64,000 nucleotides of DNA, from positions 62,001 through 126,000 of the forward strand of contig CAMDSH010000004.1 of the NCBI GenBank assembly GCA_945907045.1, written 5' to 3'. The first letter of the stretch is position 1; each line of letters starts with the position of its first letter. This stretch comes from Rhizobium sp. Q54. Lineage in GTDB: Bacteria > Pseudomonadota > Alphaproteobacteria > Rhizobiales > Xanthobacteraceae. The notes under the pieces were generated by a model that made no database searches, was not told the DNA's origin, and saw only the letters and a list, made by a program, of their open reading frames with translations. Of the stretch, positions 3,320-63,550 are shown piece by piece. The translations under genes were made by a program, and so were the position numbers.

Positions 3320-4561
3320 TTATTCCGAACGCGGAAGTTCTTTCAGCCGCATCAGCACGTAGAGCGCGAACGCGGGCGCGATCAGCGCCGGGCCCGGAAT
3401 GTGCAAGGTGCCGAGCCCGATTTGCAGCAGCGGTAGCCAGTAGACCAGCCGCGCCAGCACGCGCCCGTGCGTGTCGAGTTTGTCCGAGGCCAGCAGGCCG
3501 AGTACGGCGAAAGTGAGCGCCAGCGTGTCGTAAGCCAGCAGATACGGCACGGCGGCAATCGAGCATGCCAGAAACAGCGCCGTCAGCATTTGCGGATCGG
3601 CGTTACGGCGACAGCGATAAGCCCAGATCACCGCACCGATCGTGGCAGCGGTGACGCAAAGCTGGGCGGCCATTGCAACTGTGTAGTTCGCGCCGATGCC
3701 GCGCAGATTCATGAAGATCGTCGGATAATACGGCGTTGCGATCCCCTCCGGGTCGGCAAGCACCAGCGCTTGCGTCGGGATACCGAGCCGCACGAAATCG
3801 ATCCACACATGCGGCCCGAACAGCCCTGCGGTGATCGCAGAGATGGCAAGCGCCGTGGCGGCTGCTGCGAAAAATACGCGCCAGCGCATGGATGCGATCA
3901 GCAAGATGGGAAACAGAACGCCGAGTTGCGGCTTCAAGGTGAGCAGGCCGATCAGCATGCCGGCGATGAGCGGTCTGCTGTCGAGGAACGCAAAGATGCC
4001 GATCAGCATCGCCGCCGTAACCAGCGAGCTTTGTCCCGAGATCAGGCAGAAAATAGCGGCGGGCGACAAAATCAACGCAACGAGAATGCGCGCATCGTTG
4101 AAATGACGCTGCGCCGTCGCGATGAAAATCGCGAGGCCGAAGGCGGTCCACAGCAGCAGCGCTTGCAAATAGGTCAGCAGACCAAACGGCGCCGCAACGA
4201 TCAGCAGGCTTGGCGGGTATGACCAGTTCTGTCCGGGGTAATCCGCACCGAGAAGGTTTGCGAGTTCGCGCTGATAGGCGAGCACGTCATACCAGCGGGC
4301 GGGGTCCGGCATCGCCGCTGCGCGGCCGTACATCCAGAAATTGAGAAAGTCGCGTCCGACCACGAGTGTCGAGCCGTCGCGCGGGATTGGTGCAACCCAG
4401 GCGATCGAATAAAAATAGGCGGCGGCGGTGGCAACGAAGAAGAATGCGCCGAGGATCGCGAACGCGCGGACAACGTCGCGGTTTGCCTGCGCGCCGTCGT
4501 CTCTCAAAATGCCGCCGGTAGGTGATGAGGTCATGGGCTGGTGTCCGGGCCGGTCATCCAA
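3320..4561 (-). CDS. GT87-type membrane glycosyltransferase (DUF2029)
   Basis: 413 residues with a short cytoplasmic N-terminus, about ten membrane helices and the GT87/DUF2029 hallmarks: a first periplasmic loop with GRDFLNFWMYGRAA (the acidic residue expected to be catalytic) and the conserved NWSYPPSLL segment near residue 125. Family members use polyprenyl-phosphate-linked sugars such as mannose to modify lipids or glycans on the outer face of the inner membrane. A second copy of the same family lies at 14.8-16.0 kb. The start used is the track ATG; Met10 (4534) is possible. Substrate is unknown. Confidence 0.82.
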   Translation of the reverse strand: MDDRPGHQPMTSSPTGGILRDDGAQANRDVVRAFAILGAFFFVATAAAYFYSIAWVAPIPRDGSTLVVGRDFLNFWMYGRAAAMPDPARWYDVLAYQRELANLLGADYPGQNWSYPPSLLIVAAPFGLLTYLQALLLWTAFGLAIFIATAQRHFNDARILVALILSPAAIFCLISGQSSLVTAAMLIGIFAFLDSRPLIAGMLIGLLTLKPQLGVLFPILLIASMRWRVFFAAAATALAISAITAGLFGPHVWIDFVRLGIPTQALVLADPEGIATPYYPTIFMNLRGIGANYTVAMAAQLCVTAATIGAVIWAYRCRRNADPQMLTALFLACSIAAVPYLLAYDTLALTFAVLGLLASDKLDTHGRVLARLVYWLPLLQIGLGTLHIPGPALIAPAFALYVLMRLKELPRSE

Positions 4562-4686
4562 AATGACGGCCCCGCATTGCTATTTCCTTACTGTGGCATT
4601 CAGCCGCCCTTGCCGCGCTATGGAAGAGCGGGCATTTTCCGCCCACAATCGCCCACCAATAGAAAAATCCCAGGGACACGATCTCC

Positions 4687-5199
4687 ATGAACGCACCGGC
4701 CAAGCCGCTTATCGTCGCTTCGACACCCGAGGAGCAGGCCAATATCCGCCTGTCGATCGAGCATTTCGCGGCGGAAAGCGCGCACGACAACGAACGCACG
4801 CTCAAGACCCTGTCGGATGACGTGATGTACCGCGTCGTGGCATCGGGTGAGATCGTTTACGGCAAGGAAGCCGTGTCGAAATATTACGACGTGTGGTGGA
4901 CGGCGTTTCCGGATGTGCACATCGAAATCCGCCGCATGGTGGCGGTGGGTGAGTGGGTATTCGCGGAAAATTTCGTCACCGCGACGCATCTCGGTCCCTG
5001 GCTCGGCCTTGCGCCGACCGGCAAAAAAGCCGTGCAGCATCTATGCGCGGTGATCCGCTGCCGTGATGGGCTGATGACCGAAGAGTCGGTCTATTACGAT
5101 CAGCTCGAGCGGCTGCGCCAGATCGGCTCCGACTTCACGATGGACGGCAAGCCGATCAACGTGCCGAAATGGAAGACGCCGCCGGTCCCGCGCGCCTAG
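4687..5199 (+). CDS. SnoaL-like / NTF2-fold protein
   Basis: 170 residues. The pattern matches the SnoaL-like ester cyclase/limonene-epoxide-hydrolase superfamily: helix with IEHFAAESAHD, strand LSDDVMYRVVASGEIVYGKEAVSKYY, then WWTAFPDVHIEIRRMVAVGEWV and HLGPWLGLAPTGK. Such proteins form a cone-shaped pocket for small hydrophobic molecules, and many catalyse cyclisations or have no assigned reaction. It stands alone on the plus strand. Its stop codon overlaps that of the convergent Bug receptor gene by 4 bases (CTAG). Confidence 0.75.
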   Translation: MNAPAKPLIVASTPEEQANIRLSIEHFAAESAHDNERTLKTLSDDVMYRVVASGEIVYGKEAVSKYYDVWWTAFPDVHIEIRRMVAVGEWVFAENFVTATHLGPWLGLAPTGKKAVQHLCAVIRCRDGLMTEESVYYDQLERLRQIGSDFTMDGKPINVPKWKTPPVPRA

Positions 5200-6188
5200 T
5201 TCACCTGAATGCCGGCGGCCTTCACCAGCGCGGCGCTGGATTCGATCTCTTTCTTCACATAGGCGCGGAATTGATCCGTCGTCATCGGCATCGGTTCGGC
5301 GCCGAGCCGCGCCAGCCGCTCTTTCACCACCGGATTTTGCAGCGCCTTCGCGACTTCATCATGCAGCCGGCGCATGATCGCGGGGGGCGTGCCGCCAGTG
5401 GCGAAGACGCCGATCCAGAAATTATATTCGGAGTTGGCATAACCGGCTTCCGTTGTCGTCGGCACGTCGGGTAGCGCAGAAGCGCGTTTGCTGCCGCTTA
5501 CGGCCAGCGCGGAAAGCTGGCTCTCCTTGATCAGCGGCAGCGCCGGCAGGATCGGACAGAAATAAAAATCGACGCGGCCGGCGACAATCTCGCGCATCGC
5601 TTCGGGCGCGCCCTTGAACGGGACGTGCACGGCGTCGAATTTCGCGCTCAACTTGAAGCGTTCGGCGTTGAGATGAGCTGCGCTGCCGGGGCCGGCAGAG
5701 GCATAATTCATCTTGCCCGGATTGGCTTTCGCCGCGGCGACGAGATCCTTGACCGACTTGTAGCCCTTGGACGAGGCGGCGATGAGCACGTTGGGAAGAT
5801 TGCCGAGCGGAATGATCGGGGGCAGGTCCTTCGCGGTGTCGTAGGTCAGATTGGTGTAGGTCACCGCCGAAACGGTGTGCGAGGACGAATGCACGAGGAT
5901 CGTGTAGCCGTCGGGCTCGGCTTTCGCGACCGCGGCCGCGCCGATGGTTCCGCCCGCGCCGACGCGGTTCTCGATCACGACCGGCTGGCCGATTTGCGTT
6001 GAGACCTGATCGAACACCGCGCGCGCGATGATGTCGGTGGCGCTGCCGGCGGAAAACGGCACGACGGCGCGCAACGGTTTGGAGGGCCAGGTGTCCGCGA
6101 GCGATACGCCTGCGTGGAGGCTGGCCGCCGCCAATCCCAATATCAGGCAACGAAATCCAGAACGTCCCGCCTTTGCCGCCCCGCGCAT
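5196..6188 (-). CDS. Bug/TctC family periplasmic solute-binding protein (orphan receptor)
   Basis: 330 residues from the chosen ATG at 6188, which has GGGAGG 6 bases upstream; the track start at 6275 lacks this. An N-terminal signal peptide (GFRCLILGLAAASLHAGVSLA) is followed by the mature Bug fold: WPSKPLRAVVPFSAGSATD, the NRVGAGGTIGA loop and EPDGYTIL. Bug proteins bind carboxylates or small organic acids in the periplasm for tripartite tricarboxylate transporters. No tctA or tctB is adjacent, as is common for this family, so it must share a permease elsewhere (perhaps the one at 21.6-23.6 kb) or act as a sensor. Ligand unknown. Confidence 0.9.
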   Translation of the reverse strand: MRGAAKAGRSGFRCLILGLAAASLHAGVSLADTWPSKPLRAVVPFSAGSATDIIARAVFDQVSTQIGQPVVIENRVGAGGTIGAAAVAKAEPDGYTILVHSSSHTVSAVTYTNLTYDTAKDLPPIIPLGNLPNVLIAASSKGYKSVKDLVAAAKANPGKMNYASAGPGSAAHLNAERFKLSAKFDAVHVPFKGAPEAMREIVAGRVDFYFCPILPALPLIKESQLSALAVSGSKRASALPDVPTTTEAGYANSEYNFWIGVFATGGTPPAIMRRLHDEVAKALQNPVVKERLARLGAEPMPMTTDQFRAYVKKEIESSAALVKAAGIQVN

Positions 6189-33000: not shown

Positions 33001-34236
33001 ATGGCGGGAGAAATGGCTTTGCGCAAGGCTTCTTCGCGGCGGGCTCTGGTGATCGGCGGTTCGATGAGCGGCCTGCTGGCGGGATTATTGCTGCGTCGCG
33101 CAGGCTGGGAGGTGGATGTTTTCGAGCGGGTGGAGAGCGAACTGTCGGGCCGCGGGGCCGGCATCGTCGCCCAGCCGGAACTGATCGAAAACCTGCGCGG
33201 ACTTGGGCTGGACGTGAGCGAGCTTGGCGTCGAAGTGACGACGCGGCGGATTTTCGACGGCGAGGGCAAGCAGTCCGGCGAAATCGAATGCCGGCAGACG
33301 CTCACCGCCTGGGAGCGGGTTTACCGCATCCTGCGCGATGCCTTTCCGCCGGAGCGCTATCACCGCGGTAAGGGACTTAAATCGTTTGAGCAGACGGCGG
33401 GCGGTGTCGCCGCGCATTTTTCAAATGGCGAAAAGGTAGAGGGCGATCTGCTGGTCGGCGCAGATGGTTTGCGTTCCACCGTGCGGCAGCAATCTTTGCC
33501 CGATCTCGCGCCGCGCTATGCCGGTTATGTCGCCTGGCGCGCGCTGTTGCGCGAGGACGCGATGTCGCCGGCAACGCACCGCGACTTGTTCGCTTACATG
33601 TCGTTCCGCCTGCCGCCGGGCGAGCAGTTCCTCGGCTATCCGGTTGCGGGACCCGACAACGACCTGCGCCCCGGCCAGCGCCGCTACAATGTGGTGTGGT
33701 ACCGCCCTGTCGAGGAGACCACCGGATTGGTGCGGCTGCTCACCGACGAGAGCGGCGTCACCCACACGATCTCGATTCCGCCGCCGCTGATCCGGCGCGA
33801 GGCGATCGACGCCATGCGCGCCGCCGCCGAGCGGCTGCTGGGACCGCAATTCCGCGAGATCGTGCGGCTGATCGATGAGCCGATCCTGCAGCCGATCTAC
33901 GATCTGGAAACTCCGCGCATGGCATTCGGTCGTGTCGCGATTCTCGGTGACGCCGCGTTCGTCGCACGTCCGCACGTTGCCGCCGGTGTGTCGAAGGCGG
34001 CGGACGATGCCAAGGCGTTGGCGCTTGCCATGCAGGACGGCGACGTGGAATCTGGGCTCAAGCGTTTCGAGGCTGAGCGGCTTCCCGTGGGCCGCCGCAT
34101 CATCGAGCGCGCGCGGCATCTCGGCGCCTACTTACAGGCAACCAAGACGCAAGAAGAGGAAGCGCGCGCCGGACGCCACAGCACCGACGGCGCCGTGATC
34201 GCGGAGACCGCGGTGCTGGATTTCCTCTACGCCTGA
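33001..34236 (+). CDS. FAD-dependent monooxygenase, 2,6-dihydroxypyridine 3-monooxygenase type (paralogue 1)
   Basis: 411 residues, class A flavoprotein hydroxylase. N-terminal FAD site ALVIGGSMSGLLAGLLLRRAGWEVDVFER, the DG motif LLVGADGLRSTVR, and the GD motif AILGDAAFVARPHVAAGVSKAADDAKALA. RGAGIVAQPELI, ERYHRGK and YAGYVAWRALL resemble 2,6-dihydroxypyridine hydroxylase of Paenarthrobacter nicotinovorans more than salicylate or p-hydroxybenzoate hydroxylases. It would use NAD(P)H and O2 to hydroxylate an electron-rich ring. The paralogue at 41308-42540 shares these motifs. Met5 (33013) is an alternative start. Confidence 0.87.
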   Translation: MAGEMALRKASSRRALVIGGSMSGLLAGLLLRRAGWEVDVFERVESELSGRGAGIVAQPELIENLRGLGLDVSELGVEVTTRRIFDGEGKQSGEIECRQTLTAWERVYRILRDAFPPERYHRGKGLKSFEQTAGGVAAHFSNGEKVEGDLLVGADGLRSTVRQQSLPDLAPRYAGYVAWRALLREDAMSPATHRDLFAYMSFRLPPGEQFLGYPVAGPDNDLRPGQRRYNVVWYRPVEETTGLVRLLTDESGVTHTISIPPPLIRREAIDAMRAAAERLLGPQFREIVRLIDEPILQPIYDLETPRMAFGRVAILGDAAFVARPHVAAGVSKAADDAKALALAMQDGDVESGLKRFEAERLPVGRRIIERARHLGAYLQATKTQEEEARAGRHSTDGAVIAETAVLDFLYA

Positions 34237-40051: not shown

Positions 40052-41311
40052 TCATCGGCCAATGTATTCCATGATGTAAAGCCCAGCGTTGTAGTCGGTG
40101 CAGTACACAAGCCCATTCCGGTCGACGAATACGTCGGTGGACTGCACGACGCGCGCGCGATTGGGCCGATGATCGACCAGCCGGGCCGGCTGCGGCGGCA
40201 CCAGCGCGCCGACTTCGACGGGATGAAATTGATCGCGGATATCGAAAACGCGCACCCCGGCGTTCTGATAAGTGGCGAAAATCAGGTCCGAGCTTACGAA
40301 ACTGTCGGGGCGGTTCTCATGAATGTTGTGTGGGCCGAAATGCCCTCCCTTGGCCACGTAGTCGTGCTCGCCGGGTGTGGGCAACGTCGCGATGCTCACG
40401 GAGTTCGTGGGCACGCGAATATCGAAAACCCAAATCAGTTTGAGCCCGTCTTCCTGATGATCGAGCACGGCTTCGTCGAGCACGATGAGCAAATCCCGAT
40501 CGGGAAGCGGCAGGCAATTATGCGTGCCGCCGCCAAACGGCGGCGACCAGTTGCGGTGGGTGATTAATTTTGGGGCAGCGCGGTCGGCGACGTCGATCAT
40601 CACCAGCCCGGCATCGCGCCACGCCGCGTATGCGGTATCACCGTTGATGATGGCGTGATGCAATCCATAACGGCTGGTTGGCGGCCAGGTGATTTGCTCG
40701 CCGGATGCCTGGTTCATGCCGGGCAGCCAATAGCGCCCGGCTTCGCGTGGATTGGCCGGATTGGCCATGTCGATAGTGATGAAGATGTAGTCGGTGAAGC
40801 CGTCGATCAGCGCGGATGCGTAGGCCCAGCGCCCGCCCGTGTACCAGACGCGATGAATGCCGCCGCCTTCGACACTCATGAAGCCGATGCGGCGCGGTGC
40901 CGCAGGCTGCGAAATATCGTAGACCGCGAGACCGGCGGTCCAGTCGCGGGCCGTGTTTTTCGGCGCAGCGGCGGTGCCGACAACTTTGCCGAGTTGCCCG
41001 CGATAATAAGCGTGCTCGTCGGCGAATTCGGCGGCGGCGAACATGTCCTTGGCGTTGATCACCAGCAGCAGATTTTCGTGCGTTTGGAGGTGAATGTTCC
41101 AGGTGCCGGGCGGCGCGGCGATGTAATTCACTGCGCGTGGATTGCGCGGATCGCGCACGTCGATGACGCTAAAGCCCTTCGAGAACATATGGCCGATAAA
41201 AGCGTGGCCATTCTCGACCATGATCTGCACGCCGTCGGGCCGTCCGCCCTGATCGGAATAACCGATGAGACGCATATTGCGCGCATGATCGGGTTTCGGA
41301 AGGTCGCTCAT
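40052..41311 (-). CDS. LVIVD-repeat beta-propeller protein
   Basis: 419 residues with no signal peptide. At least five LVIVD-type repeats are visible: FSVIDVRDPRNPRAV, LAVYDISQPAAPRRIG, ITIDMANPANPREAG, LVMIDVADRAAPKLI and VRVFDIRDQFHPVEVG, the pattern of a single beta-propeller. Several conserved His residues (THNCLP, GPHNIHEN) could bind a metal. Function of the family is unknown. Its ATG overlaps the stop of the upstream FAD monooxygenase (ATGA), so the two are translationally coupled. Confidence 0.85.
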   Translation of the reverse strand: MSDLPKPDHARNMRLIGYSDQGGRPDGVQIMVENGHAFIGHMFSKGFSVIDVRDPRNPRAVNYIAAPPGTWNIHLQTHENLLLVINAKDMFAAAEFADEHAYYRGQLGKVVGTAAAPKNTARDWTAGLAVYDISQPAAPRRIGFMSVEGGGIHRVWYTGGRWAYASALIDGFTDYIFITIDMANPANPREAGRYWLPGMNQASGEQITWPPTSRYGLHHAIINGDTAYAAWRDAGLVMIDVADRAAPKLITHRNWSPPFGGGTHNCLPLPDRDLLIVLDEAVLDHQEDGLKLIWVFDIRVPTNSVSIATLPTPGEHDYVAKGGHFGPHNIHENRPDSFVSSDLIFATYQNAGVRVFDIRDQFHPVEVGALVPPQPARLVDHRPNRARVVQSTDVFVDRNGLVYCTDYNAGLYIMEYIGR

Positions 41312-42540
41312 TCGTAAGCTTTCAGGAAATCCGGCACCGCGATCCAGTCCATCATGGCGCGGTAGTCCTGCAACAGCAGGTGCATGTCGCGGTCTTCCTT
41401 CGTCTGCAAATTGACGCCCATGTGAGTGCCGAGCTTGCGCGCATGCAGCACGATCTTCTCGCCAATCGGCTGGCGGATGCGGTTGTATTCGCTGAGAGCT
41501 TTGTCGATGTCATCGTGATCGCGCAACGCGGCGGCGAGCGCTTGCGCGTCGGTACCGGCTTTCGAGACACCGAAGCCCATGTGCGGGCGTGCATTCGAAG
41601 CCGCATCTCCGACCAGTGCGACGCGGCCATGCACAATCGACGGCGCGATAAAATCGTAGATCGGCGTGAAGAACGGTTGATCGATGGCGTTAAGGCAATC
41701 GAGCAATGCGGGCGGCAACTCGGCTTCGGCGTCAGCACGCATCTGCGCGATCAAGTTTTTTCGAATGAGCGGCGGCGGCACCGAATGTTCGTGCTGCTGT
41801 CCGTTCTCGTCGATGCACATTTCCTTGAGCAGCGCGGCGTCGGCGACGCGATACCAGATGAAATTGAATCGCCGGTGGCCGGGCCGCAAATCGTTGTTAA
41901 AGCCGGAAATCGGATAGCAGATGATCTCCTGCCGCTCCGGTAAGTAGAAGGAGAAATACGGAAACACAGTTTTCAACGCGAGCGGCGACAAATCGGATTC
42001 GTTCGGCGCGCCACGCCAGATGTAATAACCGGCATAGATCGGCTGTACGTCAGGCGCGATTTGCGCGCGCACGCCGGAGCGCAAGCCGTCGCCGCCGATC
42101 AGCAGGTCGGCTTCTTCGACGCGGCCTTTGGAAAAATGGACGCGCACGCCGCTGCCATCCTGCTCGAGGCGCTCGAAGTTGCAGCCAAGATGGTAATGCG
42201 CGGGGTCGATGGTTTCGCGCAGCAGGCGCTGCAGCCGGTCCCATGACGTGAGGATTTGCGGAAGGTGCTTTTCGCCAATGACGCGGCCCTTGCGGTCGAT
42301 GGCGATGCGTCTTTCAACCGTAATGCCGAGGTCCTGCGTGCCGGCACCACTCGCTTCCAGCGCCTGCAGCAGTTCGGGATGCGTGGTGATGCCGGCGCCG
42401 CGGCCGACCAGTTCGACGCTTGAGCGCTCGAACACGTCCACCTGCCAGCCGATCTGGCGCAGGAATGCCGCGGTGAAAAGACCGGACATCGAGCCGCCGA
42501 TCACGACCGCGCGGCGGCCGTTCGATTTTCCCGTTGTCAA
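41308..42540 (-). CDS. FAD-dependent monooxygenase, 2,6-dihydroxypyridine 3-monooxygenase type (paralogue 2)
   Basis: 410 residues, class A flavoprotein hydroxylase. FAD site AVVIGGSMSGLFTAAFLRQIGWQVDVFER, DG motif LLIGGDGLRSGVR, GD motif ALVGDAASNARPHMGFGVSKAGTDAQALA. GRGAGITTHPEL, YAGYYIWRG and NDLRPGHRRFNFIWYR align with the paralogue at 33001-34236. Likely hydroxylates a phenolic or hydroxypyridine-like ring. Heads a likely operon with the LVIVD protein and, 76 bases on, the system 2 receptor and importer. Divergent from the EamA gene. Confidence 0.87.
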   Translation of the reverse strand: MTTGKSNGRRAVVIGGSMSGLFTAAFLRQIGWQVDVFERSSVELVGRGAGITTHPELLQALEASGAGTQDLGITVERRIAIDRKGRVIGEKHLPQILTSWDRLQRLLRETIDPAHYHLGCNFERLEQDGSGVRVHFSKGRVEEADLLIGGDGLRSGVRAQIAPDVQPIYAGYYIWRGAPNESDLSPLALKTVFPYFSFYLPERQEIICYPISGFNNDLRPGHRRFNFIWYRVADAALLKEMCIDENGQQHEHSVPPPLIRKNLIAQMRADAEAELPPALLDCLNAIDQPFFTPIYDFIAPSIVHGRVALVGDAASNARPHMGFGVSKAGTDAQALAAALRDHDDIDKALSEYNRIRQPIGEKIVLHARKLGTHMGVNLQTKEDRDMHLLLQDYRAMMDWIAVPDFLKAYE

Positions 42541-48936: not shown

Positions 48937-49908
48937 ATGCTCAACGCCGCGATTATCGGCCTCGGCTGGTGGGGCCAGAAATTGGCGCAAGCCGCGCAAG
49001 GCTCGCCGTTAATCCGCTTTACGCGCGGCGTGACGCTGGAGCCCGAGCTTGTGGCGGAGTTCGCCACCAGCATGAAGCTCAAGATCGGCACGTCCTATGA
49101 GGAGGTGCTGACCGATCCGGCAATCGACGCGGTGGTGCTGGCGACGCCACACACCACGCATCGCACGCTGGTGGAAAAAGCCGCCGCGGCGCGCAAGCAC
49201 GTATTCTGCGAGAAGCCGTTCGCGATGTCGAAGGCGGATGCGCAAGCTGCGCTCAAGGCCGTCGAGCGCGCGGGCGTCACGGTCGGCGTCGGGCAGAATT
49301 TCCGCTTTCTTCCATCGATTGCCGCCATGCGTGTGCTGATCGATGAAGGCATGCTTGGAACGCTGATGCATGCGGAGGGCAATTACAGCCACGACTGGCT
49401 GGCCGGGCAGGGCAGCGAGCATTGGCGCACAGCGCCGGAACAGAGCCGGGCCGGCGGCATGACCGGCATGGGCATTCACGTGCTCGATTGTTTTAGTTAT
49501 CTCGCCGGCCCAATGAAGCGCATTTCGGCACTCTCCCGCAAGCGTGCGCTCGATTTGCCGACGGGCGACACCACCGCGGCGTTTGTCGAGTTCGCCAATG
49601 GTGCGACCGGCACCTTGGCGACGACGTTGAAGACGCCGTACATCTGGCGCATCGCGCTGTTCGGTTCAGATGTATGGCTGGAAAGTACCAATGAGAACCA
49701 GCTAGTGATTCATCGCTCCAAAGGCGATCCGGAAATACGGGAGTTCCCGGCCGCCAATCATCAGCGCATCAATCTGGAATCTTTCGCCGCCGCCGCATTG
49801 GGACGTGGAAAATTCCACATCGGCAACGACGGCATCGTGCACACGGTTGCGGCGCTGGAGGCGGTGTTCAAATCGGTTGATGCGGACGGCGCGTGGATGG
49901 TGATGTAA
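48937..49908 (+). CDS. Gfo/Idh/MocA-family oxidoreductase
   Basis: 323 residues. N-terminal Rossmann: AAIIGLGWWGQKLAQAAQG, then LATPHTTHRTLVEKAA and the signature CEKPFAMSKADA; the second domain carries SHDWLAGQ and GGMTGMGIHVLDCFSYLAG, with the usual catalytic His (IHVLD). It oxidises or reduces a sugar or other hydroxy compound with NAD(P). 7 bases from maiA-like gene; last gene of this plus-strand run. Confidence 0.9.
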   Translation: MLNAAIIGLGWWGQKLAQAAQGSPLIRFTRGVTLEPELVAEFATSMKLKIGTSYEEVLTDPAIDAVVLATPHTTHRTLVEKAAAARKHVFCEKPFAMSKADAQAALKAVERAGVTVGVGQNFRFLPSIAAMRVLIDEGMLGTLMHAEGNYSHDWLAGQGSEHWRTAPEQSRAGGMTGMGIHVLDCFSYLAGPMKRISALSRKRALDLPTGDTTAAFVEFANGATGTLATTLKTPYIWRIALFGSDVWLESTNENQLVIHRSKGDPEIREFPAANHQRINLESFAAAALGRGKFHIGNDGIVHTVAALEAVFKSVDADGAWMVM

Positions 49909-49916
49909 GCGCCGCG

Positions 49917-50906
49917 TTATACGGACTGCATGCGGGGAGAAGGCACCCGCTTCGGCTCGCCGATCGCCGCGTCCCACACATCGTGGATATGCGCGACTTC
50001 CGCCTCGAAGCGTTCGAGGAACATGCGTGCGTGCGCGCTCAACGTGCGGCGCGTTGGCTGGATGACGACAAACTCGGCGTGCAGTTGCGGATCGACGATC
50101 GGATTCACCACAAGTTCGGTGCGGCCGATGTCGTTCACCGAGATTACACTTGGCAGCACGGTCGTCCAGTCCGAGCGCGCGATGAATTCCAGCGTCGCGA
50201 TCATCGCGTCCATTTCCAGCATGGCCGAGATCTCGACGCCGTGAGTCTGGAAATAAGTATCGAGGTTACGGCGGCGGATGTTGTGCGGGCCGGGCACCAC
50301 GATTTTCAGCGGCGTCAAATCCCGCAGACGCACGGGCGCGAGCGGCAAGAGGCCGCGCTGCGGACCCGAAATGAGCATCTCGCGGTCGCGGACCAGCAAC
50401 CTCGATTTGAGCCCGACCGTGCCTTCGAACGACGGCACCACGGCGAAGTCGAGATCACCGCCCAGCACCATCTCGGTGAGCAGGCCGCTGTAGCCTTCGA
50501 CGATGTGCAGCCGCACTTCCGGGCAGCGCGGCACGAAGTATTCCATCACCGGCGCGAGCACGGCACGGGTGAAGGTCGGCATCAGCCCGATGCGAAGATC
50601 CCCAGTGAGCTGCCCGGCCACCGAGCGCGCCTCTTCGGCTGCGTATTCCAAGGTACCCACAGCCTCGACGCAGCTCTTGTAGTAGCGCAGGCCCGCCGGG
50701 GTGGCCGCGACGCCGCCGGCGGAACGTTCAAATAGTTTCACCCCCAGCGCGCGCTCGACCGCCGCAACGTGCTGGGAAATGCCTGATTGCGTGGCGTTTT
50801 CGCGCTCCGCCGCGCGGGTGAAAGAGCCTTCCTCGCAGACGGCGATGACGGCCCTAATCTGGCGGAGCGGGATGTTTTGCATACAAACAACTTCACAAGA
50901 GGACAT
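49917..50906 (-). CDS. LysR-family transcriptional regulator
   Basis: 329 residues. Winged helix-turn-helix at about 10-70 with GSFTRAAERENATQSGISQHVAAVERALG, then an effector-binding type II periplasmic-like domain. Met9 (50882) is an alternative start. It is divergent from the M24/phosphotransferase/dehydrogenase operon across 117 bases and is the likely regulator, acting through binding in that gap and responding to a pathway compound. The convergent Gfo/Idh gene ends 8 bases away. Confidence 0.93.
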   Translation of the reverse strand: MSSCEVVCMQNIPLRQIRAVIAVCEEGSFTRAAERENATQSGISQHVAAVERALGVKLFERSAGGVAATPAGLRYYKSCVEAVGTLEYAAEEARSVAGQLTGDLRIGLMPTFTRAVLAPVMEYFVPRCPEVRLHIVEGYSGLLTEMVLGGDLDFAVVPSFEGTVGLKSRLLVRDREMLISGPQRGLLPLAPVRLRDLTPLKIVVPGPHNIRRRNLDTYFQTHGVEISAMLEMDAMIATLEFIARSDWTTVLPSVISVNDIGRTELVVNPIVDPQLHAEFVVIQPTRRTLSAHARMFLERFEAEVAHIHDVWDAAIGEPKRVPSPRMQSV

Positions 50907-51023
50907 TAGAAAAACTGATTACACAGGGCAGAATATATTATTTCGGTACGGCACGCCATCCGCATAGGCTTTCTCCCAGTGAAACATCAGGGCGCGGTCA
51001 ACGCGCCAGGCGGGGAGGACACC
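50907..51023. promoter_or_regulatory. Divergent promoter region between lysR and the M24 operon
   Basis: 117 bases. AT-rich GAATATATTATTT (50931-50943) is the best -10-like stretch. Several T-N11-A candidate positions exist in CACAAGAGGACATTAGAAAA, but no clear palindrome could be chosen. It ends with GGGGAGGACACC before the ATG at 51024. Confidence 0.5.
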
Positions 51024-52292
51024 ATGGGAGCGAATTTCGGCACCGTCGGCCTTGATTGGCAACAGCGCGTCAATTGGGACCGGCTGCGGACGTATCGAAC
51101 CGAACGCGCGCGAGCGATGATGAAGAAGCACGGCCTTGGCGCCGTGCTCTGCATGTACGACGAGAACGTGCGCTACATCACCGGCACGCTCACGCCCGGC
51201 TGGAACCGGCTCAAGCCCGGCCTTCGCTACGCGATGTTGTGCGGCGACGGCGCACCCATTCTGTTCGAGCAGGGCGATCTCGGTTTCCAGATCGAGCGCC
51301 ACTCGCCGTGGATCCCGAAAGACAACGTCCGTCATTCCTTCGCATGGATCAAAGGCGCTGCCGGTCCCGCCTCGACCCAGCAGGTCAACAAATTCGCCAA
51401 CGCCGTCATTCAGGCGATGAAGGACAATGGCGTCGCCGGACAAAAGCTCGGCGTCGACTTCGTCGACATCAACATGATTCAGGTTTTCAAGGAAAAGAAC
51501 ATCAACTGGGTCGATGGCATGACCCCGATGATGGAAGCGCGCGCGGTGAAGAACGTCGATGAGCAGGAATGTTTCCGCATCGTCGGCGCCATCGGTGATG
51601 CCACGCACTGGGAGTGCATGAAGTTCCTGCGCCCCGGGATCACTGAAAATCAGGTGACTGCGCATCTGATGAAGTATCTCTACGACATTCCGGGCATGGA
51701 AGACGTCGAGGATGTGATCGTGTCGTCCGGCCCGAACACTTGGCCGAACTGGCGCAACTTCTCCGACCGCATCATCCAGCCCGGCGACATCGTGTTCATG
51801 GATTTGGCCGCGCTCACCTGGAACGGCTACAAGTCCTGCTATTACCGCACTTACTGCGTCGGCAAGGAGCCTTCACAAGAACAGAAGGACACCTACAACA
51901 CCGCGTACAAGTGGCTGTACGATTCCATCGGTGCGGTTAAGGCCGGCGCCACTACGCGCGACATTGCGCTGAAGTGGCCGTCCGCGATGGAGACCTGGGG
52001 CTACGAGGATGAAGATCAGGCAGCCGCGAACCTGTGGGGCCACGGCCTCGGTCTCGCGCAATACGACCCCCCGGTGATTTCGCGCATCTGGTCTCTCGAC
52101 CATCCGATCGAAATCAAGGAAGGCATGACCTTCGCGCTCGAGACGCAGCACGGTAAACGTTTCCGCTACGGCGTGCGCATCGAGGAAATGCTGATCGTGC
52201 ACAAGAACGAGATCGAGATCGTTTCGAATTTCCCGGTCAAGCAGATCACGGTTGTCGATCCCATTCCGGGCTACGGTGACCACGTCAAATGA
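51024..52292 (+). CDS. M24-family (pita-bread fold) hydrolase with an altered metal site
   Basis: 422 residues from ATG 51024 (GGGGAGGA 7 bases upstream). N-terminal creatinase-like domain (1-170) and the C-terminal M24 pita-bread domain. The five metal ligands of M24 metallopeptidases would be Asp, Asp, His, Glu, Glu. Here they read Asp260 (IVFMDLAAL), Cys272 in NGYKSCYYRTYCVG where GYxxD is expected, His340 (LWGHGLGL), Glu373 (FALETQHG) and Glu387 (VRIEEML). So the second Asp is Cys. Relatives in catabolic operons (DddP lyase, creatinase, DoeA) are non-peptidases, so a C-N or C-S bond-cleaving role is possible. First gene of the LysR-linked operon. Confidence 0.88.
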   Translation: MGANFGTVGLDWQQRVNWDRLRTYRTERARAMMKKHGLGAVLCMYDENVRYITGTLTPGWNRLKPGLRYAMLCGDGAPILFEQGDLGFQIERHSPWIPKDNVRHSFAWIKGAAGPASTQQVNKFANAVIQAMKDNGVAGQKLGVDFVDINMIQVFKEKNINWVDGMTPMMEARAVKNVDEQECFRIVGAIGDATHWECMKFLRPGITENQVTAHLMKYLYDIPGMEDVEDVIVSSGPNTWPNWRNFSDRIIQPGDIVFMDLAALTWNGYKSCYYRTYCVGKEPSQEQKDTYNTAYKWLYDSIGAVKAGATTRDIALKWPSAMETWGYEDEDQAAANLWGHGLGLAQYDPPVISRIWSLDHPIEIKEGMTFALETQHGKRFRYGVRIEEMLIVHKNEIEIVSNFPVKQITVVDPIPGYGDHVK

Positions 52293-52296
52293 TCCG

Positions 52297-53580
52297 ATGA
52301 GCACGTTTGTTATTCCGCTTGGCGCTCCGGAGGCGGCCTTCGCCGAATATGTCGGCCCGAAGGCTGCCAATCTGGCGGCGCTCAGCCGTGCCGGATTGCC
52401 GACGCCGGGTGGGTTCTGTCTCACGGCAGCCGCCTATTGGCGGCAAATTCACGCACTCGGACTTGCCAAGGACGTTGCGCGCTACAACGCGGCGGAACTG
52501 CCAGAGCAGCGCAAGCTTTCCATCACCATCCGCATCGCGCTTTATGAGCAGCCGATCGCGCCGGAAATCCTGACGCCGCTGCTCGCCGCATGGCGCGTGC
52601 AGATGCTCAATCCCGGCACGCGCGGCGTGGTGCGCTCATCGGCGCTGATCGAGGATCGCAAGGGCGCGAACTTCGCCGGGCAGTTCGAAAGCTTTCTCGG
52701 GCTCACCGACGAAACTGAATTCCTCGTCGCCGTGCGCGCTTGCTGGGCGGCGCTGTGGACATCGCATGCCCGGCGCTACATGGAAAATCATGCGCTCAGC
52801 CCCGCCGACACGGCGATGGCGGTGCTCATTCAGCCGCTGGTGGCGGCGCTCGCATCCGGCGGCGGTTTGAGCGAAACCGCCGAAGGCCACATGTTGCTGA
52901 GCGCGACCTGGGGGCTTGGCTCGGCGATCGCGCAAGGCGAGGTGGTGCCGGACCGCATTCTGCTCGGCAAGAACGGTTTCATTCGCAAGGTGGACGCCGG
53001 CCGCAAAGGCCATCGCGACACCTGCGAGCATGGCGCGATGGTCGCGCCGCAACTGGTGCCGACCGATCTGGTGAGCAAGCCTTGTCTGCATCCGGGGCAG
53101 GCGGTTGCGCTCGGGCGCATGTTGCGCAAGGCGGAAGGCGTCGTCGGCGGCCCGGTCGAGATCGAATGGGCGCTGGATGACGCGGGTTTCAAACTGCTGC
53201 AGGCGCGCCCGTTGCATGTAGAGCCCGCGGTGGTGCCTGACGCGATCTGGCTCAAGCATCCCGGCCTCAACGGCCATCCTGCCGGCATCGGCTGGGGTGC
53301 GGGCCGCGCGGTGGTGGTGAATTGCGAATGCGAACTATCGCGCGTTGCGCCGGGCGACATCCTGGTGACCAAGGTGGCGGGGCCGGCGCTTGTGCATGTG
53401 CTGCAGCGCGTTGCCGGCGTAGTGGCGGAACTCGGTGGCTCGACCTCTCATCTGGCGTCGCTCGCGCGCGAGCGCGGCATTCCGATGGTGCTCGGCGTGC
53501 TCGACGCCACGCAGCATATTCCCGACGGCTCGCAATGCGCGGTCGATGGCGTCGCCGGCATCGTGCGGTGGCTGCGGTGA
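52297..53580 (+). CDS. Two-domain PEP-synthase-like phosphotransferase (ATP-grasp plus phospho-His domain)
   Basis: 427 residues from ATG 52297, 4 bases after the M24 stop. Residues 1-310 match the ATP-binding half of PEP synthase: VGPKAANLAALSRAGLPTPGGF, VVRSSALIEDRKGANFAGQFESFLG, LLSATWGLGSAIAQGEVVPDR and VEIEWALDDAGFKLLQARPL. Residues about 345-427 are the swivelling domain with His385 in AELGGSTSHLASLARERGIP. The PEP/pyruvate TIM-barrel of PEP synthase (about 790 residues) is absent, and so is a middle acceptor domain as in rifampin phosphotransferase. It resembles subunits of phenylphosphate synthase. It may phosphorylate a hydroxyl or carboxyl of a catabolic substrate; the acceptor site would have to be supplied by another protein. 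Confidence 0.85.
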   Translation: MSTFVIPLGAPEAAFAEYVGPKAANLAALSRAGLPTPGGFCLTAAAYWRQIHALGLAKDVARYNAAELPEQRKLSITIRIALYEQPIAPEILTPLLAAWRVQMLNPGTRGVVRSSALIEDRKGANFAGQFESFLGLTDETEFLVAVRACWAALWTSHARRYMENHALSPADTAMAVLIQPLVAALASGGGLSETAEGHMLLSATWGLGSAIAQGEVVPDRILLGKNGFIRKVDAGRKGHRDTCEHGAMVAPQLVPTDLVSKPCLHPGQAVALGRMLRKAEGVVGGPVEIEWALDDAGFKLLQARPLHVEPAVVPDAIWLKHPGLNGHPAGIGWGAGRAVVVNCECELSRVAPGDILVTKVAGPALVHVLQRVAGVVAELGGSTSHLASLARERGIPMVLGVLDATQHIPDGSQCAVDGVAGIVRWLR

Positions 53581-54560
53581 AACGCCCGCGCATTTTCGTC
53601 ACGCAACCCATCGCCGAGAGCGCCCTGAAGCGGCTGCGCGCGGCGGCTGACGTTAAGGTCAATCCGGACTCAAGCAAGATCATCAAAAAGAGCGCGCTGA
53701 TTGCGGCCGTGCGTAAGCATGACATCCTGTTTCCGCTGTTGCACGATGTGGTGGACCGCGCGGTGCTGGCCGCCAATCCGAAGCTGCGCGCGGTCACCGC
53801 GATGGCGATCACGCCGGACAACATCGACGTTGCCGAGGCGACCAAGCGTGGCATTCCGGTCACCGTGGTGCCGCCGATCGTGGCGGAAGCGACCGCCGAT
53901 ATCCATTTCGGACTTTTGATCGCCGTGGCGCGCCGCATGATCGAAGGCGACCGCATGGTGCGCGCGAACAAGTTCCCCGGCTCGCAGTCGAACCATCTCG
54001 CGGGTGCCGCCGTTTACGGCAAGACCATAGGTCTCGTCGGCGGCGGCGGGCGTATCGGCCAGGCGGTGGCGCGGCGCGCGCGCGGCTTTGGCATGCGTAT
54101 TCTCTATTGGAGCCCGCGGCAGAAACCTGAGGCCGAGCGCGAACTGCAGATGGAATTCGTCACGCTTGAGCGGCTGTTCAAGGATTCTGATTTCATCTCG
54201 CTGCATCCGCCGCTCAATGCGCAGACGCATCACATGATTGGCGCCCGCGAATTCGCGCAGATGAAGCCGACGGCCTTCATCGTCAACACCGCGCGCGGCG
54301 CCATCATCGACGAAGCGGCGATGATCCGCGCGCTCATTAAAAAGCAAATTGCCGGCGCGGGTCTCGATGTGTTCGAGCATGAGCCGAAAGTGTCGGACAA
54401 GCTGCGCAAGATGAAGAATGTCGTGCTCACCCCGCATCTCGGCAGCGCGGTGATGTCGGTGCGCGAGGTGATGGCGAACATCGTCGCCGACAACGTGCTG
54501 GCGCTGCTCGATCATCAGAAGCCGCCGAATTGCATCAATCCGGAAGTTCTCAAGCTGTAG
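53577..54560 (+). CDS. D-isomer-specific 2-hydroxyacid dehydrogenase
   Basis: 327 residues from a GTG at 53577 overlapping the upstream TGA (GTGA), which is the best evidence for this start; the track ORF extends 85 codons into the upstream gene. NAD site TIGLVGGGGRIGQAVARRA; catalytic Arg240 (VNTARGA), Glu269 (FEHEP) and His287 (TPHLGS). The family reduces 2-ketoacids or oxidises D-2-hydroxyacids. Third gene of the LysR-linked operon; presumably handles the hydroxyacid made from the two preceding reactions. Confidence 0.9.
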   Translation: MKRPRIFVTQPIAESALKRLRAAADVKVNPDSSKIIKKSALIAAVRKHDILFPLLHDVVDRAVLAANPKLRAVTAMAITPDNIDVAEATKRGIPVTVVPPIVAEATADIHFGLLIAVARRMIEGDRMVRANKFPGSQSNHLAGAAVYGKTIGLVGGGGRIGQAVARRARGFGMRILYWSPRQKPEAERELQMEFVTLERLFKDSDFISLHPPLNAQTHHMIGAREFAQMKPTAFIVNTARGAIIDEAAMIRALIKKQIAGAGLDVFEHEPKVSDKLRKMKNVVLTPHLGSAVMSVREVMANIVADNVLALLDHQKPPNCINPEVLKL

Positions 54561-62566: not shown

Positions 62567-63550
62567 TTACCTTGCCACGATTGGCTGTGCCGCCAGCGCT
62601 GGCTCGCGCATCGCGACTCCGGCGAAAGTAGAACCTTCCTCAAACCACGACTTCGGCGCCGGCTGGCCCCACAGCGTTTGACGCTGTGGATCGCGCAACG
62701 ACCAGCGAAGCGGCTCAAGATCGGGATCGACGGTGAGATAGTCGGAGGTGAACAGTTCGACGCGGTGGCCGTCGGGATCCCGCGTATAGAGAAAGAACGC
62801 GTTGGAGATACCGTGACGTCCGGGCCCGCGCTCCATATTGGCGAGAAAGCCGGACGAGGCCATCACGTCGCAGATATGCAGGATGTCGAGCGCGCTCGCC
62901 GTCCACACACCGATGTGGTGCAACCGCGGGCCGCGCCCGTTCGTGAATGCAAGGTCGTGCACATTGCCCTTGCGATGCATCCATACTGCCCAGAATTTAG
63001 GATCGGGATCGTCGGTCTCGGTATATTCGGTCAGGCGGAAGCCAAGCTCATTGTAGAATTCGTAACTCGCCTGCACGTCCGGCGTGAAGCAGTTGATGTG
63101 GTCGATACGCTGGATGCGCGCGCCTTTGTATTCGGCGTAGCGACGGATCATGCTTTCGCGCTGATCCATGCGCGCGTAAAAATCGAGCGGCATGCCGAAA
63201 GGATCGGCGGTGCGCAGCGTGCGGCCTTGATGCGGCACTTGCGGAAATGAAACAGGCAAGTTCTTGCGCTTGAACCAATCGGCAGCGCGGTCGATGTCTT
63301 CTTCGCTCGCGAGCTTGAAGCCGAGCGCATCGACGCGCGGCTCACTCATCTTGCGCAGCACGAGGGAATGATGATTGCGCTCCTCGACTGCGCGCAGGTA
63401 AAGCGTATCCTTATCCTCATCGGTCACCAGATATCCGAGGCAATCGACGTAGAAGGCACGCGACTTGCCGATATCGCCCACGCCAAATTCCACATGGCTG
63501 GCGCGCACGATATTGAACGGCGGCGAGAAATTCGGTTTGACGAGCGGCAT
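62567..63550 (-). CDS. hpaD: Homoprotocatechuate 2,3-dioxygenase-type extradiol dioxygenase
   Basis: 327 residues, two VOC modules. The active site is in the second: His151 (RIDHINCFTPDV), His212 (PRLHHIG) and Glu265 (HRVELFTSDY) bind Fe(II) or Mn(II); second-shell His198 (RKGNVHDLAFT) and Tyr255 (FFLYTRDPDG) match His200 and Tyr257 of the Brevibacterium enzyme. The RGPGRHGISNAFFLYTRDPDGHRVELFTSDY block and the C-terminal WGQPAPKSWFEE tail are those of HPCD. It opens 3,4-dihydroxyphenylacetate (or a close catechol) at the 2,3 bond. 3 bases after hpaF. Confidence 0.87.
   Translation of the reverse strand: MPLVKPNFSPPFNIVRASHVEFGVGDIGKSRAFYVDCLGYLVTDEDKDTLYLRAVEERNHHSLVLRKMSEPRVDALGFKLASEEDIDRAADWFKRKNLPVSFPQVPHQGRTLRTADPFGMPLDFYARMDQRESMIRRYAEYKGARIQRIDHINCFTPDVQASYEFYNELGFRLTEYTETDDPDPKFWAVWMHRKGNVHDLAFTNGRGPRLHHIGVWTASALDILHICDVMASSGFLANMERGPGRHGISNAFFLYTRDPDGHRVELFTSDYLTVDPDLEPLRWSLRDPQRQTLWGQPAPKSWFEEGSTFAGVAMREPALAAQPIVAR

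Follow-up and report, generated by a model that had tools for sequence, protein, structure and literature searches.

Small-molecule dikinases have newly been recognized in aromatic catabolism and antibiotic inactivation. In HpeHI, CreHI and PpsAB, the swivel domain is fused to the acceptor domain and the ATP-grasp domain is a separate protein (PMC12167813). VadK (Rv1127c) from Mycobacterium tuberculosis consists of an ATP-grasp and a phosphohistidine domain with the pyruvate/PEP domain missing, and is described as a regulatory kinase acting via protein partners (PMC13400623). The ligands of the DMSP lyase DddP are Asp295, Asp297, Asp307, His371, Glu406 and Glu421 (PMC4108388).

Here, we analyze a 64,000-nucleotide stretch of a Rhizobium sp. 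Q54 contig (the window), in which a LysR-family gene faces three genes encoding an M24-like protein, a minimal dikinase and a D-2-hydroxyacid dehydrogenase (HADH1), and compare this locus with its relatives in other genomes. The set had been put forward as a candidate for an undescribed system, and a search of an open-access full-text library, with the subscription literature mostly outside it, found no published description of it.

Organization of the locus

The four genes are arranged as the initial annotation had claimed (Table 1). All Pfam assignments lie above curated cut-offs (LysR; Creatinase_N and Peptidase_M24; PPDK_N and PEP-utilizers; 2-Hacid_dh), the 4-base gap between the M24 and dikinase genes spans exactly 52293-52296, and the GTGA overlap of the dikinase and HADH1 genes falls exactly at 53577-53580. 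We refined the start of the M24 gene to 51024. For the LysR gene, the second ATG, at 50882, is judged from sequence comparison to be the more likely start, because relatives begin there and because a conserved palindrome overlaps the upstream start; this start, used in most relatives, leaves a divergent promoter of 141 bases.

Table 1. Coordinates of genes, sites and sequence elements in the window
Feature	Position	Strand	Basis or remark
Gfo/Idh/MocA oxidoreductase	48937-49908	+	Homologues recur beside M24-dikinase in other classes
LysR-family regulator	49917-50882	-	Pfam (HTH_1 + LysR_substrate); start of open reading frame in initial annotation, 50906
LTTR-type box ATTAG-N5-CTGAT (T-N11-A)	50905-50919		Relatives share it between their LysR and M24 genes
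Second block AGAATATATTATTT, also conserved, in the LysR/M24 spacer	50930-50943		22-locus alignment
M24-like protein, 422 aa, CYYRT clade, rebuilt peptidase site	51024-52292	+	Pfam, alignments
Cys272 codon (site of DddP Asp307)	51837-51839	+	Alignments
Minimal dikinase, 427 aa	52297-53580	+	ATP-grasp 17-310 and phosphohistidine swivel 351-421; PEP/acceptor domain absent
His385 codon, predicted phosphohistidine (GGSTSH)	53449-53451	+	Conservation
D-2-hydroxyacid dehydrogenase (HADH1)	53577-54560	+	GTG start overlaps dikinase stop
HpaD, 3,4-dihydroxyphenylacetate 2,3-dioxygenase	62567-63550	-	NCBIfam, 406 bits against a cut-off of 321

A dikinase without an acceptor domain

The dikinase holds only the PPDK_N and PEP-utilizers mobile domains and is devoid of a PEP/pyruvate or any other acceptor domain. 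Lys22, Arg113 and the motifs E-I-E-W, Q-x-R-P (LQARP) and GGSTSH, with His385, are conserved in 65 dikinase sequences. The GGxTSH phosphohistidine and ATP-site residues place the protein in the PEP synthase/dikinase superfamily, and the conservation of the ATP-site elements and of the GGSTSH His agrees with the earlier view that its phosphotransfer residues are intact. By sequence it stands closer to PEP synthase than to PPDK, and PEP synthase, rifampin phosphotransferase and HpeI are among its best fold matches. It falls outside the PEP synthase family proper, scoring 214 bits against 598 and missing the C-terminal PEP/pyruvate-binding domain. The label 'minimal PEP-synthase-like' was right as to affinity and is refined here, in that the acceptor domain is wholly missing; the suggestion that the protein works in the manner of phenylphosphate synthase overlooks the acceptor domain that those enzymes have and this one lacks, and we do not retain it. 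The layout, an ATP-grasp and a His domain with no acceptor domain, is of the VadK type and is not the two-component layout of HpeHI, since ATP-grasp and swivel share one chain and no acceptor domain is present.

An M24-like protein with a rebuilt metal site

Four of the five ligands of M24 metallopeptidases (Asp, Asp, His, Glu, Glu) are kept in the M24-like protein, as D260, H340, E373 and E387. The metal-bridging Asp is replaced by Cys272, which is invariant in 80 family sequences and lies inside the motif DLAALTWNGYKSCYYRTY, confirming that the metal-site alteration noticed earlier is real. The catalytic and substrate histidines of prolidase-type enzymes are also both lost, PHH of PepE aligning to PNW and HEEP to YDPP. 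The loss of both peptidase histidines, together with Cys at the bridging position, supports the earlier reading of this protein as a non-peptidase M24 enzyme.

The closest fold is that of DddP, which is also the best NCBIfam match. Membership among DddP DMSP lyases was considered and rejected, because the score of 89 bits falls far below the cut-off of 600 and two DddP ligands are absent: the positions of Asp297 and Asp307 are occupied by Ala262 and Cys272.

A wider 'CYYRT' clade likewise carries Cys for the bridging Asp, with members (L002, L149-L152) in the same genome, in haloarchaea and on Phaeobacter/Tritonibacter plasmids. The relative in the same genome adjoins a MetE-like gene (named by sequence only); the Haloferax and roseobacter genes adjoin 2-oxoacid dehydrogenase E1 subunits and succinate-semialdehyde dehydrogenase, and the roseobacter loci additionally carry sugar ABC transporter genes. 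That these M24 genes sit in operons without a dikinase indicates that the M24 fold is useful on its own, which speaks against the two-protein reading proposed below. A catabolic, non-peptidase role of the clade is likely. Locus L066 has two M24 paralogues (162-1649 and 3954-5219, 40% identical) in one cluster with a HIBDH-like gene.

Conservation of the M24-dikinase pair

A genome scan limited to one genome per species yielded 80 loci in records labeled alpha-, beta- and gammaproteobacteria, whose M24 proteins are 78-96% identical. Among the 75 loci whose sequence extends 400 bases or more beyond the M24 gene, mapping of the window's proteins placed a dikinase gene downstream on the M24 strand, no more than 2.5 kb away, in 73, an adjacency far above chance. 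A zinc alcohol dehydrogenase (zinc-ADH) gene separates the two in some betaproteobacterial loci, and the L113 contig ends inside this gene, so that a dikinase cannot be seen there. In L061 the M24 gene is followed by 990 bases of different coding sequence, and this locus is a true exception or a misassembly. The initial annotation had named an order restricted to this one genome as grounds for giving up its proposal; the order is widespread, and the proposal survives this test.

Both orthologues were found in 21 of 150 same-family genomes, one in 3 (all at contig edges) and neither in about 126, giving a Fisher p of 2e-22 for co-occurrence, a significance that relatedness inflates. Protein distances of M24 and dikinase correlate across 65 loci (r=0.79). 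The operon was absent from six other sampled genomes of the same genus and rare in class-level and phylum-level samples, which marks the module as accessory and, in all probability, as mobile. A plasmid search revealed no copy of the operon among the matches listed, which held only M24 relatives (36-38%) and PEP synthases.

The M24-dikinase pair is the core of the module, and HADH1 is common but replaceable. HADH1 follows in 25 of 26 loci of one group (L034-L070) versus 17 of 34 elsewhere, and LysR accompanies 21 of 37 Xanthobacteraceae-type loci versus 1 of 43 others. On these counts the M24-dikinase part of the originally claimed set stands, and the three genes plus LysR do not form a conserved unit. 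A second HADH paralogue lies downstream in 14 of 23 loci of the L034-L070 group and in 23 of 28 elsewhere, and outside that group it often replaces or joins HADH1.

Regulation and neighboring genes

The palindrome ATTAGN5CTAAT occurs within 2 mismatches in 21 of 22 intergenic regions, compared with a mean of 0.84 and a maximum of 4 in shuffles. Because the loci are related, this conservation shows constraint or common descent and not regulation as such. The divergent gene and the conserved T-N11-A box nonetheless make the earlier link to LysR likely, and LysR would control the operon in the Xanthobacteraceae branch.

HADH1 has both 2-Hacid_dh Pfam domains above cut-off and the motifs NTARG, DVFEHEP and TPHLGSA, and with the catalytic Arg, Glu and His it belongs to the D-2-hydroxyacid dehydrogenases. 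It falls short of the glyoxylate reductase equivalog (PRK13243; 343 bits against 455), and an NCBIfam-based substrate assignment was rejected, as HADH1 lies below every cut-off. Recurrent neighbors in relatives are Gfo/Idh oxidoreductases, an FAH-family hydrolase, zinc-ADH and TTT-type transport proteins. The homologues of the 48937-49908 gene beside M24-dikinase in other classes make the Gfo/Idh/MocA gene a probable accessory member. The FAH-family neighbor is closest to 2,4-didehydro-3-deoxy-L-rhamnonate hydrolase, at 459 bits under a cut-off of 500. The pair in marine alphaproteobacteria is accompanied by a UPF0261 (Tm-1-like) protein and an SdhA-like flavoprotein (L086, L089, L093, L103, L104, L107, L108). 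Some betaproteobacterial loci have an OsmC-related protein (NF041052 domain) in the extended operon (L110:14769-15944, L112:14584-15762).

HpaD lies upstream of minus-strand genes for an HADH, a three-gene Mo-hydroxylase, a cyclase-family hydrolase, a HisD-like protein and an SDR, together a catabolic island. We considered HpaD and the Mo-hydroxylase, cyclase and HisD-like genes as the pathway of the operon and set them aside; HisD-like, cyclase and Mo-hydroxylase orthologues lie downstream, within 8 kb of M24, only in Xanthobacteraceae-type loci. The window also contains two PRK07236-family FAD monooxygenase genes, at 41308-42540 (-) and 33001-34236 (+); the former has homologues of 41-45% identity close to M24 in several relatives (L038, L046, L061, L065 and L069). 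The FAH and Gfo/Idh neighbors suggest a sugar-acid-like substrate, and the HpaD, FAD hydroxylase and Mo-hydroxylase genes of the window itself suggest an aromatic one.

Docking model

M24 enzymes are usually dimers; the M24-like protein was modeled here as a single copy. In a number of loci the M24 reading frame continues past its stop into that of the dikinase, so that a natural read-through could be modeled, with 15 in-frame rows concatenated and the M24 stop read as Gly. AlphaFold2 gave this 861-residue read-through a pTM of 0.72, compared with 0.49 for a single control, M24 with its downstream zinc-ADH neighbor from betaproteobacteria, whose alignment was shallower (28 versus 72 rows, 3 versus 15 paired rows). 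We estimate a pTM of about 0.5 for randomly placed halves. The model suggests with moderate confidence that the two proteins dock; the evidence is weak because the control alignment is shallower and because docking was judged by pTM alone, an indirect measure, rather than from coordinates or PAE.

Proposed mechanism and alternatives

We tentatively favor, at somewhat short of an even chance, a horizontally spread catabolic module with an M24-dikinase core, in which the dikinase phosphorylates a substrate that the M24 protein binds or produces. M24 adjoins an acceptor-less dikinase in many unrelated proteobacteria, which points to a probable joint and undescribed catabolic step, and as the dikinase has no acceptor domain of its own, the phosphate may be handed to a small molecule of the M24 partner. 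His385 would take phosphate from ATP, leaving AMP and Pi, and the swivel domain would carry it to a small molecule that the M24-like protein has bound or formed, the acceptor sitting in, or coming from, the rebuilt Cys-containing site. The D-2-hydroxyacid and Gfo/Idh enzymes would process the product, with zinc-ADH and FAH-family enzymes taking part in other lineages. Phosphotransfer by the dikinase is suggested by knowledge of its family; the role and docking of the M24 partner, the direction of the reaction, its regulation and its substrate are what we infer, and the order in which M24 action, phosphorylation and dehydrogenation would follow one another is likewise putative. A more specific form, in which the M24 pita-bread protein is the recruited acceptor subunit of a split dikinase and holds the substrate in its ex-peptidase Cys site, seems to us rather unlikely. 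If true, it would represent a new kind of two-component kinase, with phosphate delivered via a swivelling phosphohistidine.

It is quite possible, if doubtful, that the enzymes simply act in sequence: an M24 enzyme resembling DddP, creatinase or ectoine hydrolase acts as a lyase or hydrolase, and the dikinase, whose two domains would suffice to bind a small acceptor, phosphorylates the free product. A 2-oxo or hydroxy acid arising later would then be reduced or oxidized by HADH. Non-peptidase M24 enzymes exist, with DddP the closest fold here, the CYYRT relatives function in dikinase-free operons, and the FAH, Gfo/Idh, HADH and ADH neighbors resemble a stepwise catabolic route. However, the small-molecule dikinases characterized in PMC12167813 and in the accessible part of PMC13400623 all carry or recruit an acceptor domain, and the near-obligate M24-dikinase adjacency exceeds what a shared pathway needs, while HADH and other neighbors swap freely.

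VadK sets the precedent of a truncated dikinase that serves as a regulatory protein kinase, which counts against the favored reading, and a VadK-like histidine-type kinase that phosphorylates M24 or another pathway protein and so tunes flux is an improbable but concrete alternative. VadK, which shares the domain layout, is described as autophosphorylating and as binding enzymes from a neighboring pathway (PMC13400623), and the modeled docking signal with M24 would fit such a role; yet the affinity to PEP synthase over PPDK implies a separate derivation, and the dikinase gene nearly always lies in a catabolic operon, even where regulators differ or none is nearby. Finally, it is very improbable that M24 and dikinase are unrelated passengers of one cassette with no common process: the patchy, mobile distribution and a Cys for Asp that might signal a dying M24 are countered by the M24 proteins, which share ~80% identity and an unvarying altered site from one proteobacterial class to another, and by a pair that persists while every other neighbor changes.

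Comparison with known systems

The pair described here adds a third domain split to the small-molecule dikinases, together with a near-obligate partner of unexpected fold, and it opens to direct testing the question of which element stands in for the acceptor domain when a dikinase is truncated. It also draws attention to a widespread Cys-substituted M24 clade whose members are usually annotated as peptidases and probably perform metabolic chemistry.

On the M24 side, DddP (PMC4108388) and the M24-like protein are 24% identical and both non-peptidase; creatinase and ectoine hydrolase DoeA/EutD share the M24 fold and non-peptide substrates and are weaker fold matches. On the dikinase side, PEP synthase is the best sequence and fold match to both domains, and rifampin phosphotransferase matches them by fold; the dikinase lacks the C-terminal PEP domain of the former and the rifampin-binding domain of the latter, and compared with both its SGVMFTxNP loop is shorter and changed. 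HpeHI, CreHI and PpsAB are likewise split dikinases with ATP-grasp and swivel modules in catabolic gene clusters (PMC12167813); the present dikinase differs in joining ATP-grasp to swivel and in having no acceptor domain. VadK has the same layout and its gene lies beside the pathway it serves; in contrast to the present dikinase it derives from PPDK, and among the partners described in the accessible part of its report there is no M24 protein (PMC13400623).
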